From contig CALMEE010000040.1 of the NCBI GenBank assembly GCA_937862885.1, forward strand, positions 1 to 64,000: a stretch of DNA of 64,000 bases, written 5' to 3'. This document shows positions 20,686 to 30,683 of the stretch, one piece after another. The number at the start of each line of letters is the position of its first letter. The first letter of the stretch is position 1. Made by a program: the position numbers and the translations under genes. A model generated the notes under the pieces. That model searched no databases, was not told where the DNA came from, and worked only from the letters and a program-made list of their open reading frames with translations. This DNA is from an uncultured Planctomycetaceae bacterium. GTDB taxonomy: Bacteria > Planctomycetota > Planctomycetia > Pirellulales > Pirellulaceae.

Positions 20686-22071
20686 ATGGAAAATCCACTT
20701 CGCAAACTCCCGTCAGTGAATCAGCTTTTAGAAAGCGCCCCCATCCAGTCATTAATCAAAACTGCCAATCATTCTGCGGTGGTATCTGGAGTGCGCTCGG
20801 CGCTGAACGCCCTGCGCGAGCAAGTCCAGTCCGCCGCGGGCGAATTCCAAATTCCGAATCCCATGGAGCTGGCCCAAAAAATCGCCGATTGGATTCAGAA
20901 GGAGGAACGACCAAGATTACGCCCGGTCATAAATGGGACTGGTGTCGTCTTACACACCGGTCTTGGCCGCGCGCCGTTAGCACGTGAAGCCATTGAGGCA
21001 ATTTCAATCATCGGCGCTGGGTACGCCAGTGTTGAAACGGACCTGGAAAGTGGTGCACGTAGCCAGCGAGTCAAGGTAGTTGAGCGGTTATTATGCGAAC
21101 TGACGGGTGCAGAAGCAGCTGCCGTAGTAAACAACAATGCAGCGGCGACGATGATCGTGCTATCGACTTTGGCCAAAGACAAAGAAGTAATCGTATCCCG
21201 CGGACAATTGGTGGAAATTGGCGGAAGTTACCGTTTGCCCGAGGTGATGCAAACGAGTGGTGCTAAACTGGTCGAGGTCGGTACAACAAACAAGACTCAT
21301 CTTTCCGACTATGCCGATGCGATCAATGAACGGACCGGCGCGATCCTGCGAGTGCATCCAAGTAATTTCAAGATCGTTGGGTTCACCGAGTCAGTCCCGC
21401 TGAAGCAACTAGTCGAATTGGCACACCGCCATCACATCCCATTCGTCGACGACATCGGTTCGGGAGCACTGATCGATTTCGCTCGTTTTAATTTACCTGG
21501 TGAACCGATGGCAAGCGACAGCGTTGAACAGGATTGTGATTTGGTTCTTTTCAGTGGTGACAAATTGCTTGGCGGACCTCAATGTGGAATAATCGTTGGC
21601 AAAGCGAATTGGGTGCACCGTGTTCTTAAACATCCTCTTTTTCGTGCGTTACGTGTGGACAAACTCACCTTAGCTGCCTTGCATGCAACTCTTTTATTGT
21701 ATCGCGATCATGAAAAAGCCGTGGAGAACATTCCGACCCTTGCTGCATTGGCAACACCTTTGCAAAATCTGCGTTTGCGAGCCGACCGACTCGCTCCGCA
21801 AATTCGACAACATGACCTGCTGGAATCGGTTGACGTCGTTGATACTCAAGCCACTTTGGGTGGTGGGTCGATCCCCGGACAGCAGATCGAGTCGATCGGA
21901 TTGCGTATCGTTCCGAAAGACATGAGCGTTGATATGCTGGCAAAGAATTTGCGGCTTGGCATGCACGCCATCATCGGAAGAATTGAAGACAATGGACTGA
22001 TCCTTGACTTGCGAACCATTCATCCTTCTGAAGACATCCGTTTGGTAGACGCAATACAGGCACTCAATTAG
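20686..22071 (+). CDS. selA: L-seryl-tRNA(Sec) selenium transferase SelA
   Basis: 461 residues, full length. SelA is a pyridoxal-phosphate enzyme that converts seryl-tRNA(Sec) to selenocysteinyl-tRNA(Sec) with selenophosphate. Seen: the N-terminal domain, the motif VINGTGVVLHTGLGRAPL (about residues 81-98), NNNAAA, the acidic VDDIGSG motif and the PLP lysine K293 in FSGDKLLGG. Its presence implies the organism makes selenoproteins. Neither selB, selD nor a tRNA(Sec) gene could be found next to it; SelB usually follows SelA. The gene starts 76 bases after the moxR operon and may be co-transcribed or separate. Confidence 0.93.
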   Translation: MENPLRKLPSVNQLLESAPIQSLIKTANHSAVVSGVRSALNALREQVQSAAGEFQIPNPMELAQKIADWIQKEERPRLRPVINGTGVVLHTGLGRAPLAREAIEAISIIGAGYASVETDLESGARSQRVKVVERLLCELTGAEAAAVVNNNAAATMIVLSTLAKDKEVIVSRGQLVEIGGSYRLPEVMQTSGAKLVEVGTTNKTHLSDYADAINERTGAILRVHPSNFKIVGFTESVPLKQLVELAHRHHIPFVDDIGSGALIDFARFNLPGEPMASDSVEQDCDLVLFSGDKLLGGPQCGIIVGKANWVHRVLKHPLFRALRVDKLTLAALHATLLLYRDHEKAVENIPTLAALATPLQNLRLRADRLAPQIRQHDLLESVDVVDTQATLGGGSIPGQQIESIGLRIVPKDMSVDMLAKNLRLGMHAIIGRIEDNGLILDLRTIHPSEDIRLVDAIQALN

Positions 22072-23115: not shown

Positions 23116-24462
23116 ATGGCAATAACTGTAAAACCCGGATTGGATGTGCCCATCGTGGGAGCTCCTGTGCAGCAAATTGTACCGGGACCTCAAGTTTCGC
23201 GTGTAGCATTGATTGCCGATGATTATGTCGGAATGCGACCGACGATGCTGGTACAAGTCGGAGATCGAGTGCGCATTGGCGATCCGCTATTCGAAGACAA
23301 GAAGAATCCTGGAGTAATTTTCACATCACCAGGATCAGGGCAGGTGGCTACCATCCATCGCGGTGAGAAGCGAAAATTTGAGTCGATCGTCGTTGAATTA
23401 AACGGTGAAGAGCATGTTGAATTCGACCGCGTGTCGGACCTCGGTAGTTTGAGTCGCGAGGTTGCGCGCGAGCAACTACTGCGGTCTGGTTTATGGACGG
23501 CACTGAGAACGCGTCCTTTTAGTCGCACACCGTCGCCGACAGCAAACGCAAACTCAATATTCGTTACCGCCATGGATTCGCAACCGCTGTGCGCGGAACC
23601 AGAATTGGTTATTGCCAATCATACCGATGACTTTGTCAACGGACTAACGGTGCTGACCAAAATCAACTCCGGTGATGTGTTTGTCTGCACACGCGGAGAT
23701 TCAAGGGTGCCGGGTCGGAATGTGCCCGGAACGAGGTTTGAAGAATTTCTGGGGCCGCATCCTGCCGGAAACGTCGGCACGCATATTCACTTTTTGGATC
23801 CGGTATACGCGGAAAAAACGGTTTGGCATATCGGATATCAAGATGTGATTGCGATTGGTCATTTGTTTCGAACAGGTCACTTGATGACCGAACGGACAAT
23901 TGCTATCGGCGGGCCGCTGGTGAAGGAGCCAAAACTGTATCGAACGCGACTGGGAGCGTGTGTTTCTGAGCTGGTTTCTGGAAAATTGTCGGAAACATCC
24001 GTGGAGCGTCGCATCGTTTCTGGGTCGATTTTGAATGGTCGAAGTGCAACTGGCACCGTGGATTATTTGGGGCGCTTCCATCTTCAGGTCACTGCATTGG
24101 AAGAGGGCACGAAGCGCGAGTTCATCGGTTGGCAACGGCCTGGTCTGAATAAGTTTTCCATCACGAGAGTTTATTTGGGCTCGTGGCTGAAAGGCAAAAA
24201 GTTTGCAATGAACACGAATATCAATGGCGGGCATCGTTCCATGGTTCCTATCGGCACGTATGAAAACGTTATGCCATTGGACTTAATGCCGACGCAGTTG
24301 TTGCGTGCCATTATAACCGAGGACACTCAGACGGCCCAAATGTTGGGAGTGCTGGAGCTGGATGAGGAAGACTTGGCGTTATGTACCTATGTGTGCCCGG
24401 GCAAGTATGACTATGGTACGATTTTGCGAAAGAATTTGACTCGAATAGAAAAAGAAGGCTAA
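23116..24462 (+). CDS. nqrA: Na+-translocating NADH:quinone reductase subunit A
   Basis: 448 residues, typical NqrA length. NqrA is the soluble cytoplasmic subunit of the six-subunit Nqr complex, which oxidises NADH, reduces ubiquinone or menaquinone and pumps sodium. Seen: the N-terminal [14 protein letters not shown], the Rnf-C-like lipoyl-type region [30 protein letters not shown], and the conserved tail [21 protein letters not shown]. The start is ATG 23116. It opens an operon nqrABCDEF-apbE of tightly spaced genes; six bases separate it from nqrB. Confidence 0.96.
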
Positions 24463-24468
24463 CCAACT

Positions 24469-25782
24469 ATGTTACGGAAGTTGCTGGACCGTTTCGAGCC
24501 GCTATTTCACAAGGGTGGCAAGTTTGAACGACTTTATCCTGTCTACGAAGCTCAGGATACGTTTCTGTATAACACCGGTGAAGTAGTAAAAGGCCGAACA
24601 CACGTTCGCGATGCAATTGACACAAAACGCATGATGATCACGGTGGTGATCGCGTTAATTCCTTGCGTGCTGATGGCCTGCTACAACACTGGGTATCAAG
24701 CGGGCAAAATTCTGGAGACGAGCCCTGCATTTGTGATTTCAGATTCAGCGCCACCGCAAGGTTTACCGACAGGATTGGCGGGTTGGCGGTATGAAGTCAT
24801 GAATACGCTCAACCTCAAGTATTGGGATGTTGGTGATTTTTACAAGAATCTGACTGCCTTCGATCTGACGCGGATTGTCAGCTGTGTGATTTTTGGTCTC
24901 CTGTATTTCCTGCCTGTTTACATCGTAACCATGGCTGTCGGGGGAGCGTGCGAGGCGTTGTTCTCAATCATTCGCCGCCACGAAATCAACGAAGGATTCT
25001 TGGTAACCGGATTGCTGTATCCTTTAACATTGCCACCCAACATTCCCTATTGGCAGGTCGCATTGGGAATTATGTTCGGGGTTGTCGTCGGAAAAGAGAT
25101 TTTCGGCGGTACTGGAAGAAACTTTTTGAATCCTGCACTTACGGGGCGGGCCTTCCTGTATTTCGCTTACCCAAAACAGATAAGTGGTAACTCGGTCTGG
25201 ACCGGGATCGATGGTTATTCCGGGGCTACGGCGCTTGGCAAGATCGCTGAACCGTCCAGCACGGGGCCGGTTGGTGAAACGCTGGCGACGCTATATGGAC
25301 CAAGTAGTGGCGCAACCTGGTCGGATTTTTTCTGGGGGAATGTTCACGGATCGATGGGTGAAACCAGTGCTTTTTGCTGTTTGCTAGGTGCGGTAATCTT
25401 GATCATGACACGAATCGGCTCATGGCGCATCATGGCTGGAGTACTGATCGGCATGTCGGCGTTTTCTGTCTTGCTTTGGCTGTTGCCGAAACAGGAGACG
25501 GTTTGGAATATTCTGCCGCATTGGCATTTGGTTTTGGGGGGCTTTGCCTTCGGAACCGTATTTATGGCGACCGATCCTGTTTCTGCGTCGATGACCAATA
25601 CCGGCAAATGGATTTATGGCGGCTTAATCGGTTTTATGACGGTTTTGGTGCGCACGGTGAATCCAGCGTTTCCGGAAGGGATTATGTTGGCGATATTGTT
25701 CGCGAACGTGCTCGCTCCTTTAATTGATTATTTCGTTGTTCAAGCTAACGTTAAGAGGAGGGCATTGCGTTATGTCGCGTGA
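24469..25782 (+). CDS. nqrB: Na+-translocating NADH:quinone reductase subunit B
   Basis: 437 residues with about ten membrane helices. NqrB carries riboflavin and a covalent FMN and forms the main sodium channel with quinone reduction nearby. The FMN site SGAT is seen at residues 251-254, with T254 the attachment threonine (T236 in Vibrio, from the known family). The conserved stretch [17 protein letters not shown] precedes it. The gene overlaps nqrC by 11 bases. Confidence 0.96.
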
Positions 25783-26659
25783 TGGAATTCCGAACACGAT
25801 TATCGTCGCTCTGTGCACTTGCCTTGTCTGTTCCTTTTTAGTTTCGGCGGCCGCTATCGGTTTGCGAGATCGTCAAGATCGAAACCGCAGTCTGGACATC
25901 AAGTCGAATATCGTATCGGTAGCTGGTTTCTCGAGCGAAGAAATCCGAGACGGTGGTGGCGTGGAGGAAATGTTCAGGAAGCGGATTCAGCCTATGATCA
26001 TCAATCTGGAAACGGGTGAAGAGGCGGTCGAAGAGGTGATGAAGCTCTTTAATTTCGCGTCGGCTGATGAGGCTTATTCCAAGTACGACCAGTTCAAAGC
26101 TTCGAAAGCTCCTCTCAGCGAAGGAAAGGCAAACGCACTCAAACGAAGTGATGATATTGCTGGAATATCGAACTTGGAAAAATACGGGTTTGTGTACTTA
26201 CTGACTGACGAAGCACAAAACGTGAAAAAGTACATTCTTCCGATCCGTGGCAGAGGACTTTGGTCCACGCTCAAAGGATTTATTGCCTTGGATCCGGATT
26301 TACAGACGGTCGCAGGACTTACTTATTACGAACATGCCGAAACTCCAGGTTTAGGTGGCGAGGTTGATAATCCTGGCTGGAAAAAATCATGGATTGGGAA
26401 AAAGGTCTATGCTGCCGAAGGAAAGCTAAATGACGACGGTTCATTGCCAGATGTGAAACTAAACGTGGCGAAGGGAACAGCGGATAACGAGTTCAGCGTG
26501 GACGGTTTGGCTGGTGCGACCATCACCGCACGCGGTGTATCTGAAATGGTCCAATTCTGGTTAAACGAATCTGGCTACGGTAGATTTATTGCGAATAGGA
26601 AGGCTCGGCAATCGACGAGTTTAGGCTTGGCAAATTCAGGAGAAAATTCCGATGGCTAA
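25772..26659 (+). CDS. nqrC: Na+-translocating NADH:quinone reductase subunit C
   Basis: 295 residues from ATG 25772, behind GAGGAGG; the frame opens earlier at 25724 but that part is inside nqrB. NqrC has one N-terminal helix ([22 protein letters not shown]) and a periplasmic domain with covalent FMN. The flavinylation site reads [13 protein letters not shown], with the attachment threonine at about residue 250. The usual Ser of SGAT is Ala here, a conservative change. The ApbE at the end of the operon would attach this FMN. It overlaps nqrD by eight bases. Confidence 0.95.
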
Positions 26660-27296
26660 GAAGTATACGCCGAAAGAATTGGTGCTTAACCCAATTTTCA
26701 ACAACAATCCGATCGCTTTGCAGATTTTGGGTATTTGCTCGGCTTTGGCAGTAACCACACGATTGGAAAAGTCGCTGGTGATGTCACTTGCGGTGATCTT
26801 TGTGATTGCATTTAGCAGTGCGGCAGTTGCCTCGATCCGCAACCGAATACCGAGTAGTATTCGAATCATCGTACAGATGACCATCATCGCCTCACTTGTG
26901 ATCCTAGTCGATCAATTTCTCAAGGCATTTAGCTACGGGCTTAGCAAAGAGCTTTCCGTTTTCGTTGGACTGATTATTACGAACTGCATCGTGATGGGCC
27001 GCGCTGAAGGGTTTGCCATGCAAAACACGGTTCGAGACAGTTTTTTAGATGGAATAGGCAATGGCTTGGGCTACAGTTTGATTCTTCTCGTGGTCGGGTT
27101 CATTCGAGAACTATTCGGAAACGGTACGGTTTTCAATGTGACCGTGCTCCCCAAAATTCAGATGGTTGATGGCGTACAAACCGGTTGGTATGAACCGAAT
27201 GGTTTGATGTTGCTGAGCCCCGTTGCGTTTTTCATCATCGGGTTCTTTATTTGGGCCTTGCGAACTTGGAAAACTGAACAGATTGAAGAGGCATAA
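26652..27296 (+). CDS. nqrD: Na+-translocating NADH:quinone reductase subunit D
   Basis: 214 residues, six membrane helices. NqrD and NqrE together hold an iron centre inside the membrane, coordinated by two cysteines of each subunit. C29 ([11 protein letters not shown]) and C112 ([11 protein letters not shown]) fall at the same positions as in the Vibrio protein. FIRELFGNG near the end is family-typical. The start overlaps the nqrC stop. Confidence 0.96.
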
Positions 27297-27298
27297 AG

Positions 27299-27898
27299 AT
27301 GGATGCAATTCTTGACTTAATTAGGCTTTTCCTTCGCTCAGCTTTTGTAGAAAACTTGGCGCTGGTTTATTTCCTTGGCATGTGCACATTTTTGGCTGTC
27401 TCTAAGAATGTCAAGACCGCACTCGGTTTAGGGGTCGCCGTAGTCGTCGTTCAAGGGATTACGATTCCCGTAAATTATTTGATTTACGATTTTATTCTCA
27501 AAGAAGGCGCGTACTTGTTCCCGGCGAACCTGGAGTTTTTGAGCCTGATCTGTTTTATTGGCGTGATCGCGGCGATTGTGCAGATCTTAGAAATGGTTTT
27601 GGACAAATACTTTCCTGCGCTCTTTAATACGCTGGGCATCTTTTTACCGCTGATTACGGTCAACTGTGCCATTTTGGGCGGTTCGTTGTTTATGCAGCAA
27701 AATGAATACAACTTTACTGAATCTTGCGTGTACGGGGTTGGTTCCGGGTTCGGTTGGGCGGTCGCAATTGCCGCCTTGGCTGGTATCCGCGAGAAGATTA
27801 CGTACAGCGATATTCCCAAGGGGCTTCGAGGTCTGGGGATGGTTTTCGTCGTTGTTGGTTTGATGGCACTCGGCTTCCTCGCATTCACGGGAATTTAG
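27299..27898 (+). CDS. nqrE: Na+-translocating NADH:quinone reductase subunit E
   Basis: 199 residues, six membrane helices, inverted-topology partner of NqrD. The iron-centre cysteines are C29 ([11 protein letters not shown]) and C123 ([12 protein letters not shown]). [11 protein letters not shown]-type and [16 protein letters not shown] motifs are typical of the family. It starts two bases after the nqrD stop. Confidence 0.96.
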
Positions 27899-27920: not shown

Positions 27921-29150
27921 ATGAGTTCAATTTCGCAAATATTGATTGGCGTATCGATGTTCACTGGGGTAGTCTTGGTCCTGGTGGCCATTATTCTGCT
28001 GGCCAAGAAGTCACTGATACCCAGCGGCAATGTGAAAATCATTGTTAACGATCAAAAAGAACTTTCGGTGCCCCAAGGGGGTAAGTTGATGGGAGCACTG
28101 GCTGATTGCGGCATTTTTGTGTCATCCGCTTGTGGCGGTGGCGGCACCTGTGCGCAGTGCCGTGTGAAAGTCTTGGAAGGAGGTGGCGATATATTGCCCA
28201 CTGAGACGTCATATATTTCGCCTAAACAAGCGCGGGAAGGGGAGCGGCTTTCCTGCCAAGTAGCGGTAAAGCGCGACATGCGCGTGGTGGTCCCAGAAGA
28301 GGCGTTCGAAACCAAGAAGTGGTTGTGCACGGTGCGATCGAATTACAATGTGGCCACGTTTATCAAAGAACTTGTCCTCGAACTTCCAGAGGGTGAAGAT
28401 GTACACTTCAAAGCCGGTGGTTACATCCAAATCGAAGTTCCACCTCATGAATTGGAATACAAGACGTTCGTCATCGAAGATGAATATCGCGAAGACTGGG
28501 ACAAGTACGATATGTGGAAATTCAAGTCGATCGTCAAGGAAAAGGTATTTCGTGCCTATTCAATGGCGAACTACCCTGGTGAAAAGGGCATTATCAAGCT
28601 GAATATCCGCATCGCTTCTCCTCCTCCTAGGCTACCGCATGTTCCGCCCGGAATCGTGTCCTCGTATGTTTTCAATTTGAAGCCGGGTGATAAGGTGACC
28701 ATTTCAGGTCCATATGGCGAGTTTTTTATCAAAGAAACCCAAAGCGAGATGGTTTATATTGGTGGTGGTGCGGGAATGGCCCCACTGAGGAGCCATATTT
28801 TTGAATTGTTTAAGAATCTTAAGACAAATAGAAAGGTATCGTACTGGTATGGTGGCCGTAGTCTACGCGAGCTTTTCTATGTAGATGAATTTCGTGAAAT
28901 CGAGAAACAATTCCCCAACTTTTCGTTCAACCTCGCTCTTTCCGAACCATTACCGGAAGACAACTGGACGGGCTACGTCGGGTTTATTCATCAAGTCTTG
29001 CTCGACAACTATTTGTCGAAACATCCTGCTCCAGAAGACATCGAGTATTACATTTGCGGACCGCCAATGATGAATGCAGCGGTCTTTAAAATGCTGGACG
29101 ATTTGGGAGTCGAACCAGAAAACATCGCCTACGACGACTTCGGTGGATAA
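27921..29150 (+). CDS. nqrF: Na+-translocating NADH:quinone reductase subunit F
   Basis: 409 residues. NqrF is the NADH dehydrogenase input module. Seen in order: N-terminal membrane helix ([23 protein letters not shown]), a plant-type 2Fe-2S ferredoxin domain with ligands C71, C77, C80 and C112, an FAD domain with [11 protein letters not shown], and an NADH domain with [13 protein letters not shown] and the C-terminal [13 protein letters not shown]. All cofactor motifs are intact. A 22-base gap follows nqrE. Confidence 0.97.
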
Positions 29151-29189
29151 TTTGGCCGGTCGTTGGGCATTGAACGCAGGAATCAGTCC

Positions 29190-30683
29190 ATGTTGAACAA
29201 AGCCCCGCAATTCAAGCAGTTATCGTGGCTCGATTTGGCGGGGCATTGGATTTCAACATGGTCGATCTCGATCATTTGTTTGGTTGGTGGAACCCGGACG
29301 CGTGCTTTGTTGCTGCATGCGTTATGGCACGTGATCATTGTCGCCTTTATCTGCCAAAGTCACCTCTTGAAGGCTAGTCGATTATCGGCTGGTTCGGTTT
29401 CAAGCATCATCTCACCCGTGGCCTCAGGAACGCAAGACAAAAAAACCGGCTTTACACTGTCCGAGGATGACGATGCGGTTCGAGTGAGCGGCACGACTAT
29501 GGGGCCCATTAAGTTCAATGTCACGATTGCAAAATCGGAAATCCAAATTGGATTGCTAAATAGTGTTAAACCACTCTTAGCTCAACAAATCGAAGCTGAA
29601 TTGGAAATTGTGAACCGGTTGATGTCGACGTATTTGGCGGATTCCGACGTCTCTCGCTTCAACCGACATGAGACTGCGGAGTGGTTTGATGTTGCACCGG
29701 AGACAGCTGCCGTCGTTGAAAATGCTCTATCGGTCAGTCGCTTGAGCCAAGCGGCGTTTGATATTACCGTCGGGCCACTTGTAAACCTTTGGAATTTCGG
29801 CCCTACGAAGAAGGAAAATCGGATTCCTTCGGAAGCAGAAATTGCTGCGATTTTGGAGTATGTTGGCTACGAAAAACTTTCGGTTGAATTGGAACCACCA
29901 CGTTTGCGAAAAGACGTCAGCGATCTTCAGATCGATCTTTCGGGCATCGCGAAGGGCTATGCTGTAGACCGAGTTGCCAATTTATTGAGCCAAAACGGAT
30001 TTTATGACTTTCTCGTAGAGGTCGGGGGAGAAGTAGTCGCGCGTGGAAAAAAACGAAATGGAAGTTTTTGGGTTGTTGGAATACTACAGCCGAACCCATT
30101 CGTCACGTCGGTCGGCCATGCAGTGCGTTTGCAGGAACAAGCGATGGCTACGTCCGGGGATTATGAGAATTTCTATCAGATCGACGACCAAGTGTTTTCA
30201 CACACGATCGATCCAGCTACTGGGCGACCAACAAATCACGCATTGGCAAGCGTGTCGATTATCGCTGATACCTGCATGGAAGCAGACGCCCTGGCGACTG
30301 CGGTTTTGGTCATGGGCCCCGAGCGCGGGCAAGCATTCTGCGAATCCAATCGCATCCAATATTTGATGATAGTACGCAACACAAACGGCGAATTGACTCA
30401 TCTTAAGTCGCCCGAATTTCCGATCGCTCAGATCCAGCAAGCGAACACGTTTGCGAATGTAATTTTACCGACGATTTTCGTCTTCGTGATCGTTATGGCG
30501 TTAATGGCGGTCGGAGTCATGTTTGGAAGAAGAAAGATCCAGGGATCTTGTGGAGGAATTGCCTCGCTCAAATCCGGTTCAATTAGTCCAGAATGTTCAA
30601 TGTGCAGCAATCCAACTCAGCGTTGCGAAACATTGAAGAAGGAGATTGAAAAACGCCGATCATCCAATGCCGCAGAGAGCTAG
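29190..30683 (+). CDS. apbE: FAD:protein FMN transferase (ApbE) fused to a NqrM-like domain
   Basis: 497 residues from ATG 29190; an upstream TTG at 29163 is less likely. An extended N-terminus with a hydrophobic segment (ALLLHALWHVIIVAFIC) precedes an ApbE domain: STYLADSDVSRFN, FDITVGPLVNLWNFGP, LSGIAKGYAVDRVA, VEVGGEVVARG and the metal-site region TIDPATGRP with DTCMEADALATAVLVMG. ApbE attaches FMN to threonines of NqrB and NqrC. The last 80 residues (30441-30680) form a separate unit: a membrane helix (VILPTIFVFVIVMALMAVGVMF), RRKIQGSCGG and three more cysteines (PECSMC, QRC). That matches NqrM, the small factor needed to install the NqrDE iron centre and normally a separate gene. The fusion is read from the sequence; its activity is inferred. 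Confidence 0.9.
   Translation: MLNKAPQFKQLSWLDLAGHWISTWSISIICLVGGTRTRALLLHALWHVIIVAFICQSHLLKASRLSAGSVSSIISPVASGTQDKKTGFTLSEDDDAVRVSGTTMGPIKFNVTIAKSEIQIGLLNSVKPLLAQQIEAELEIVNRLMSTYLADSDVSRFNRHETAEWFDVAPETAAVVENALSVSRLSQAAFDITVGPLVNLWNFGPTKKENRIPSEAEIAAILEYVGYEKLSVELEPPRLRKDVSDLQIDLSGIAKGYAVDRVANLLSQNGFYDFLVEVGGEVVARGKKRNGSFWVVGILQPNPFVTSVGHAVRLQEQAMATSGDYENFYQIDDQVFSHTIDPATGRPTNHALASVSIIADTCMEADALATAVLVMGPERGQAFCESNRIQYLMIVRNTNGELTHLKSPEFPIAQIQQANTFANVILPTIFVFVIVMALMAVGVMFGRRKIQGSCGGIASLKSGSISPECSMCSNPTQRCETLKKEIEKRRSSNAAES

Follow-up and report, generated by a model that had tools for sequence, protein, structure and literature searches.

A complete nqr operon ends in a gene that joins ApbE and NqrM domains

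The gene that closes the nqr operon at this locus raises the question of whether one protein can carry two maturation steps for the same complex, the sodium-pumping respiratory enzyme NQR, namely flavin attachment by ApbE and the building of the iron centre associated with NqrM. The window, that is, the whole stretch of 64,000 nucleotides that we analyzed, contains a complete nqrABCDEF set on the forward strand, each subunit of which was identified by its NCBIfam profile: nqrA at 23116 to 24462 (TIGR01936, E 6.9e-170), nqrB at 24469 to 25782 (TIGR01937, E 2.6e-158), nqrC at 25724 to 26659 with an uncertain start that may be 25772 (TIGR01938, E 3.3e-65), nqrD at 26652 to 27296 (TIGR01939, E 6.2e-91), nqrE at 27299 to 27898 (TIGR01940, E 1.4e-88), and nqrF at 27921 to 29150 (TIGR01941, E 1.7e-200). 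The iron-site cysteines are present in both NqrD (GICSA and TNCIV) and NqrE (GMCTF and VNCAI). Using D-x-x-[S/T]-G-A-[S/T] as the flavinylation motif, we found a full match in the NqrB sequence (DGYSGAT), while the corresponding NqrC stretch (DGLAGAT) deviates at position 4, where Ala replaces Ser/Thr; this minor variant also occurs in two separate-type genomes. About 1 kb upstream of the operon, at 20686 to 22071 on the same strand, lies a gene for a protein judged by eye to be SelA-like (L-seryl-tRNA(Sec) selenium transferase).

The apbE-nqrM fusion gene lies behind nqrF at 29190 to 30683 on the forward strand, with a gap of 39 bases counted from the ATG at 29190, and it is an uninterrupted single frame, open to its stop, that encodes 497 amino acids from this ATG. 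The start codon is unsettled, with TTG at 29163 or 29280 also possible, and alignment with relatives points to the TTG at 29280, which lies just 5' of a signal-peptide-like stretch, GGTRTRALLLHALWHVIIVAFICQ, as a possible functional start. Two Pfam domains score above their cut-offs in this same protein, the ApbE flavin transferase domain (PF02424, E 2.8e-87; 29550 to 30362, forward strand) at residues 130 to 400 and NqrM (E 3.5e-7) at residues 452 to 498, both numbered from the TTG at 29163. Compared with the usual trait of NqrM, a separate small protein, this locus differs, as its NqrM part shares the ApbE frame; being separate does not, however, define NqrM in biochemical terms. These results bear out the initial annotation, which had placed a full ApbE domain and an NqrM-like tail in one protein, had given the gene these same coordinates, and had taken it to be the last of the nqr operon.

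The ApbE part retains the fold and catalytic residues of a flavin transferase

An AlphaFold model of the fusion, built with 24 fused sequences, has a mean pLDDT of 82, with values mostly above 90 in the ApbE core, and its best Foldseek matches are all ApbE structures. The best solved relative is the nqr-associated ApbE of Vibrio cholerae (6nxi, E 2.6e-71), which has 40% identity to the model and a TM score of 0.91 normalised by the target. The catalytic triad of the V. cholerae enzyme, Ser241-His257-Asp285 (PMC12052999), has its counterpart in Ser322 (30153 to 30155), His338 (30201 to 30203), and Asp366 (30285 to 30287), all on the forward strand, with the same spacing of 16 and 28 residues, and these three positions are invariant in 24 of 24 aligned fusions. 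The fusion thus resembles V. cholerae ApbE in domain, fold, catalytic Ser-His-Asp, and place behind nqrF, as well as in having its NqrB and NqrC targets in the same operon. In contrast, V. cholerae ApbE ends after the ApbE domain, where the fusion continues into a C-terminal transmembrane helix.

The two proteins also differ at the N terminus. V. cholerae ApbE, like most characterized ApbEs, is lipid-anchored, in its case via an N-terminal Cys (PMC12052999), whereas neither the window protein nor the signal peptides of its relatives show a clear lipobox. The putative N-terminal signal peptide or signal anchor of the fusion, encoded at 29280 to 29378 on the forward strand, is a hydrophobic helix after Arg residues, which spans residues 37 to 65 in the AlphaFold model and lines up with TRRALLLVAFLL, the corresponding stretch in the signal peptides of relatives, with start codon and cleavage site both uncertain. 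The FMN of NqrC is periplasmic, and ApbE works there (PMC12052999). Two more ApbE genes without an NqrM part are present in this genome (C122:8837-9703 and C64:16799-17629), and other flavinylated proteins are therefore expected in it.

The C-terminal tail is an NqrM domain with a predicted N-out, C-in topology

The initial annotation had described the tail as a membrane helix followed by RRKIQGSCGG and three further cysteines, a pattern that we see as well, and had proposed a profile search of the C-terminal part, which matched NqrM (DUF539, PF04400). In the whole fusion the match reaches 30.4 bits against a curated cut-off of 22, in the genome search it reaches 35 bits against the same cut-off, and on the tail alone the E value is 2.9e-8. 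A planctomycete NqrM profile, the first row of which is the fusion's own sequence, gives E 1.5e-27. The NqrM domain is encoded at 30516 to 30656 on the forward strand and has the pattern GSCGG-x(12)-CxxC-x(6)-C; its helix runs into GRRKIQGSCGG, and its four cysteines are residues 454, 469, 472, and 479, numbered from the ATG (codons at 30549, 30594, 30603, and 30624). All four are invariant in the 24 aligned fusions, in which the linker is long and freely variable, and the CGG-CxxC-C motif is kept by 52 of the 54 fusions, as it is by 42 of the 47 separate NqrM proteins. The tail therefore shares with the NqrM proteins of Vibrio, Pseudomonas, Marinobacter, and Ruegeria the single helix, the GSCGG motif, the three further cysteines, and the position directly downstream of ApbE coding sequence, but in those organisms NqrM is a separate protein of roughly 65 to 85 amino acids.

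A single transmembrane helix, that of the NqrM part, is predicted at residues 418 to 445 (30441 to 30524, forward strand). Across 54 fusions, the mean net charge is -1.8 in the 20 residues before this helix and +2.2 in the 12 residues after it, which by the positive-inside rule predicts that the ApbE domain is outside, in the periplasm, and the NqrM cysteines are inside, in the cytoplasm. The cysteine-rich tail itself is poorly modelled (pLDDT 44 to 66), and a search for a solved structure of NqrM found none. The predicted topology would suit both partners, since ApbE acts on the periplasmic side and the proposed role of NqrM is to supply NqrD/NqrE with Fe (PMC6209661; PMC12174285).

A long and variable linker is also what one might expect if the product were split after synthesis into two separate proteins, either by proteolysis in the linker or because translation also starts internally, ahead of the NqrM helix, and five fusions (those of G291, G521, G708, G584, and G688) do have a Met at the start of this helix. 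However, the window protein and most fusions have no Met directly before the helix, and no protease site was recognisable with the tools used, so we regard such splitting as unlikely and favour a single membrane-spanning chain.

The fusion is the sole NqrM in many planctomycete genomes

We surveyed a phylum sample of 392 genomes and a class sample of 398 genomes. PF04400 was found in 22 of the 392 phylum genomes, all 22 of which also have NqrF, and within that sample NqrM was present in 27 of 29 NqrF-positive genomes of the class, as counted from lists. In the class sample, a profile made from the phylum PF04400 matches detected NqrM in 123 genomes. Checking the frames at 100 loci plus the window gave 54 fusions and 47 separate genes, and since every frame of at least 400 amino acids, together with one truncated at the end of its contig, was checked, 54 of 123 NqrM-bearing genomes (44%) is the full count for the class sample. 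The planctomycete survey proposed with the initial annotation thus recovers the same architecture repeatedly, and its occurrence in this genome is more than chance. Where NqrM is separate in the class, its gene mostly sits in the nqr operon, immediately behind apbE.

Among the 80 nearest loci in named records, 27 encode fusions, all from planctomycetes, including Rhodopirellula baltica, Rubripirellula obstinata, Stieleria tagensis, and Neorhodopirellula pilleata; in all Gammaproteobacteria among these loci NqrM is separate. NQR also occurs in Bacteroidota, Chlamydiota, and Verrucomicrobiota; the survey beyond Planctomycetota covered Pseudomonadota, and it found no fusion in 399 genomes, 77 of which have NqrM, the longest NqrM frame being 172 amino acids. 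Matches on Ruegeria plasmids, considered as a fusion outside Planctomycetota, were rejected because they are two genes. The apbE and nqrM genes of Ruegeria TM1040 share a frame and are separated by 30 bases, so that one lost stop would join them, and an assembly or sequencing artefact of this kind might be invoked for the fusion as well. This explanation is refuted by the number of fused frames, 54 in the class sample and 27 in named records, which include isolates such as R. obstinata, R. baltica, Stieleria, and Neorhodopirellula.

A separate nqrM elsewhere in the genome, which the initial annotation had named as evidence against its reading, was found neither with PF04400 nor with the planctomycete profile in this assembly (94% complete). 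Likewise, the planctomycete profile gave no second NqrM match in any of the 54 fused genomes, and in R. baltica the fusion is the sole NqrM. The fusion thus replaces a separate nqrM. This result bears on whether the NqrM part could be a mere membrane anchor for ApbE that no longer takes part in iron-centre assembly. Another anchor could be useful to a protein family whose characterized members are mostly lipid-anchored (PMC12052999), given the lack of a clear lipobox noted above. However, an anchor needs neither GSCGG nor CxxC...C, yet both are invariant in the 24 fusions while the linker varies, and the fused genomes have no other NqrM to do the work. Both points disfavour a pure anchor, which we consider highly improbable.

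Fused and separate states have interchanged repeatedly

On an ApbE tree of 96 rows, the fused label needs 12 changes (9 to 12 in bootstrap trees), and at least three changes between fused and separate states are forced by strong branches. A single origin, with the fusions as one clade, was rejected on this tree (p-AU 5.5e-36). The fused state is not one clade, so fusion or splitting must have happened repeatedly; splitting back is also possible, and the tree, being unrooted, does not tell gains from losses. Repeated fusion would be easy given the apbE-nqrM gene order, with about 30 bases between the genes and at times the same frame.

We also found that 19 of the 54 fusions lie away from the operon, with no nqrF within about 7 kb upstream (for example, loci L086, L087, L088, L102, and L103). 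NqrF was looked up for a subset of these 19, some of which are on short contigs, and lies elsewhere in the genome (G137, G194, G291, G274, and G344). The location of these fusions outside the nqr operon suggests that the ApbE-NqrM pair moves as one unit.

A candidate bifunctional maturation factor for NQR

Taken together, the conserved features argue that the fusion is a bifunctional NQR maturation factor, with the roles of ApbE and NqrM in one membrane-spanning chain, a reading to which we give a probability of roughly 0.87. Retention of the fusion where its gene lies away from the operon also favours this reading, while the low-confidence model of the tail, the Ala in the NqrC motif, the two NQR-positive relatives that have no convincing NqrM, and the unlikely cutting of the chain in its linker speak against it. 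The suggestion in the initial annotation that one protein may carry both maturation steps is therefore supported, as both findings that would have spoken against it, a tail unlike NqrM and a separate nqrM gene, were looked for and neither was obtained. In the proposed mechanism, the N-terminal signal sequence would export the ApbE domain, which at the periplasmic face would use FAD as the source of the FMN that it attaches to Thr in the motifs of NqrB (DGYSGAT) and NqrC (DGLAGAT). The variable linker would lead from this domain into the NqrM transmembrane helix, which would bring the cysteines of GSCGG and CxxC...C to the cytoplasmic side of the membrane, and there they would assist in building the iron centre that lies between NqrD and NqrE. 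That both activities reside in one chain is suggested by conservation, and iron delivery by the fusion is likewise presumptive, this role being a proposal in the literature for NqrM generally. Vibrio and Klebsiella NqrM are reportedly needed for the NqrDE iron centre (Kostyrko and colleagues, 2016).

More tentatively, the fusion might dock on the nascent pump and couple periplasmic flavinylation of NqrB and NqrC to cytoplasmic building of the NqrDE iron centre, making assembly concerted or ordered, although we think this rather doubtful. If such coupling were true, separate ApbE and NqrM would act as a complex in other organisms.

Significance and relation to described fusions

Little is understood of how NQR acquires its membrane-buried iron centre, and the role of NqrM in this step is a proposal. 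An independently recurring fusion would provide "Rosetta stone" evidence that a flavin transferase and an iron factor operate next to each other on a shared intermediate, and it would fix the topology of NqrM, as predicted from charge, with the N terminus on the ApbE, i.e., periplasmic, side. Its recurrence and topology make questions of NQR assembly directly testable, and the fusion is a potential single-gene tool for maturing NQR in heterologous hosts. There is also some practical interest, because both NQR and its maturation have come under discussion as targets for antibiotics.

ApbE domains are also found in the ApbE-fumarate reductase fusions of the eukaryotes Trypanosoma and Leptomonas, in which an intracellular ApbE is fused to its own substrate (PMC12052999). 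In the planctomycete case the fusion partner of ApbE is instead a maturation factor, one that serves a different cofactor within the same complex. The initial annotation knew of no described ApbE-NqrM fusion, and we likewise found no description in the open literature on NqrM, DUF539, ApbE fusions, and planctomycete NQR, a coverage that leaves out the founding NqrM paper, which may mention it; the fusion is thus apparently undescribed in the open literature. Both halves are known families; domain databases should show the fused architecture, which is already present in public planctomycete genomes, R. baltica among them. The joining of two adjacent, functionally linked genes is in itself unsurprising.

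Additional observations on NqrM

Two genomes of the class, G024 and G357, have a strong NqrF and no convincing NqrM (best E 0.015 to 0.017), which indicates that NqrM is not indispensable in the class; G024 shares its genus with two fusion-bearing genomes. At two further loci, L171 and L173 (genomes G595 and G663), the NqrM frame is about 155 to 165 amino acids long and has no same-strand apbE or nqr gene within about 7 kb. Two NqrM copies occur in 6 of the 77 NqrM-positive Pseudomonadota genomes. In Vibrio sinaloensis (L254:7573-8540), a second NqrM-family protein of 64 amino acids (PF04400, E 1e-15) adjoins a Nitro_FeMo-Co protein (PF02579) and a DUF134 regulator (PF02001) in a 16-kb locus without nqr genes, with another nqrM match elsewhere in the genome; this second protein may represent a paralogue of NqrM from a different metal-cluster context.
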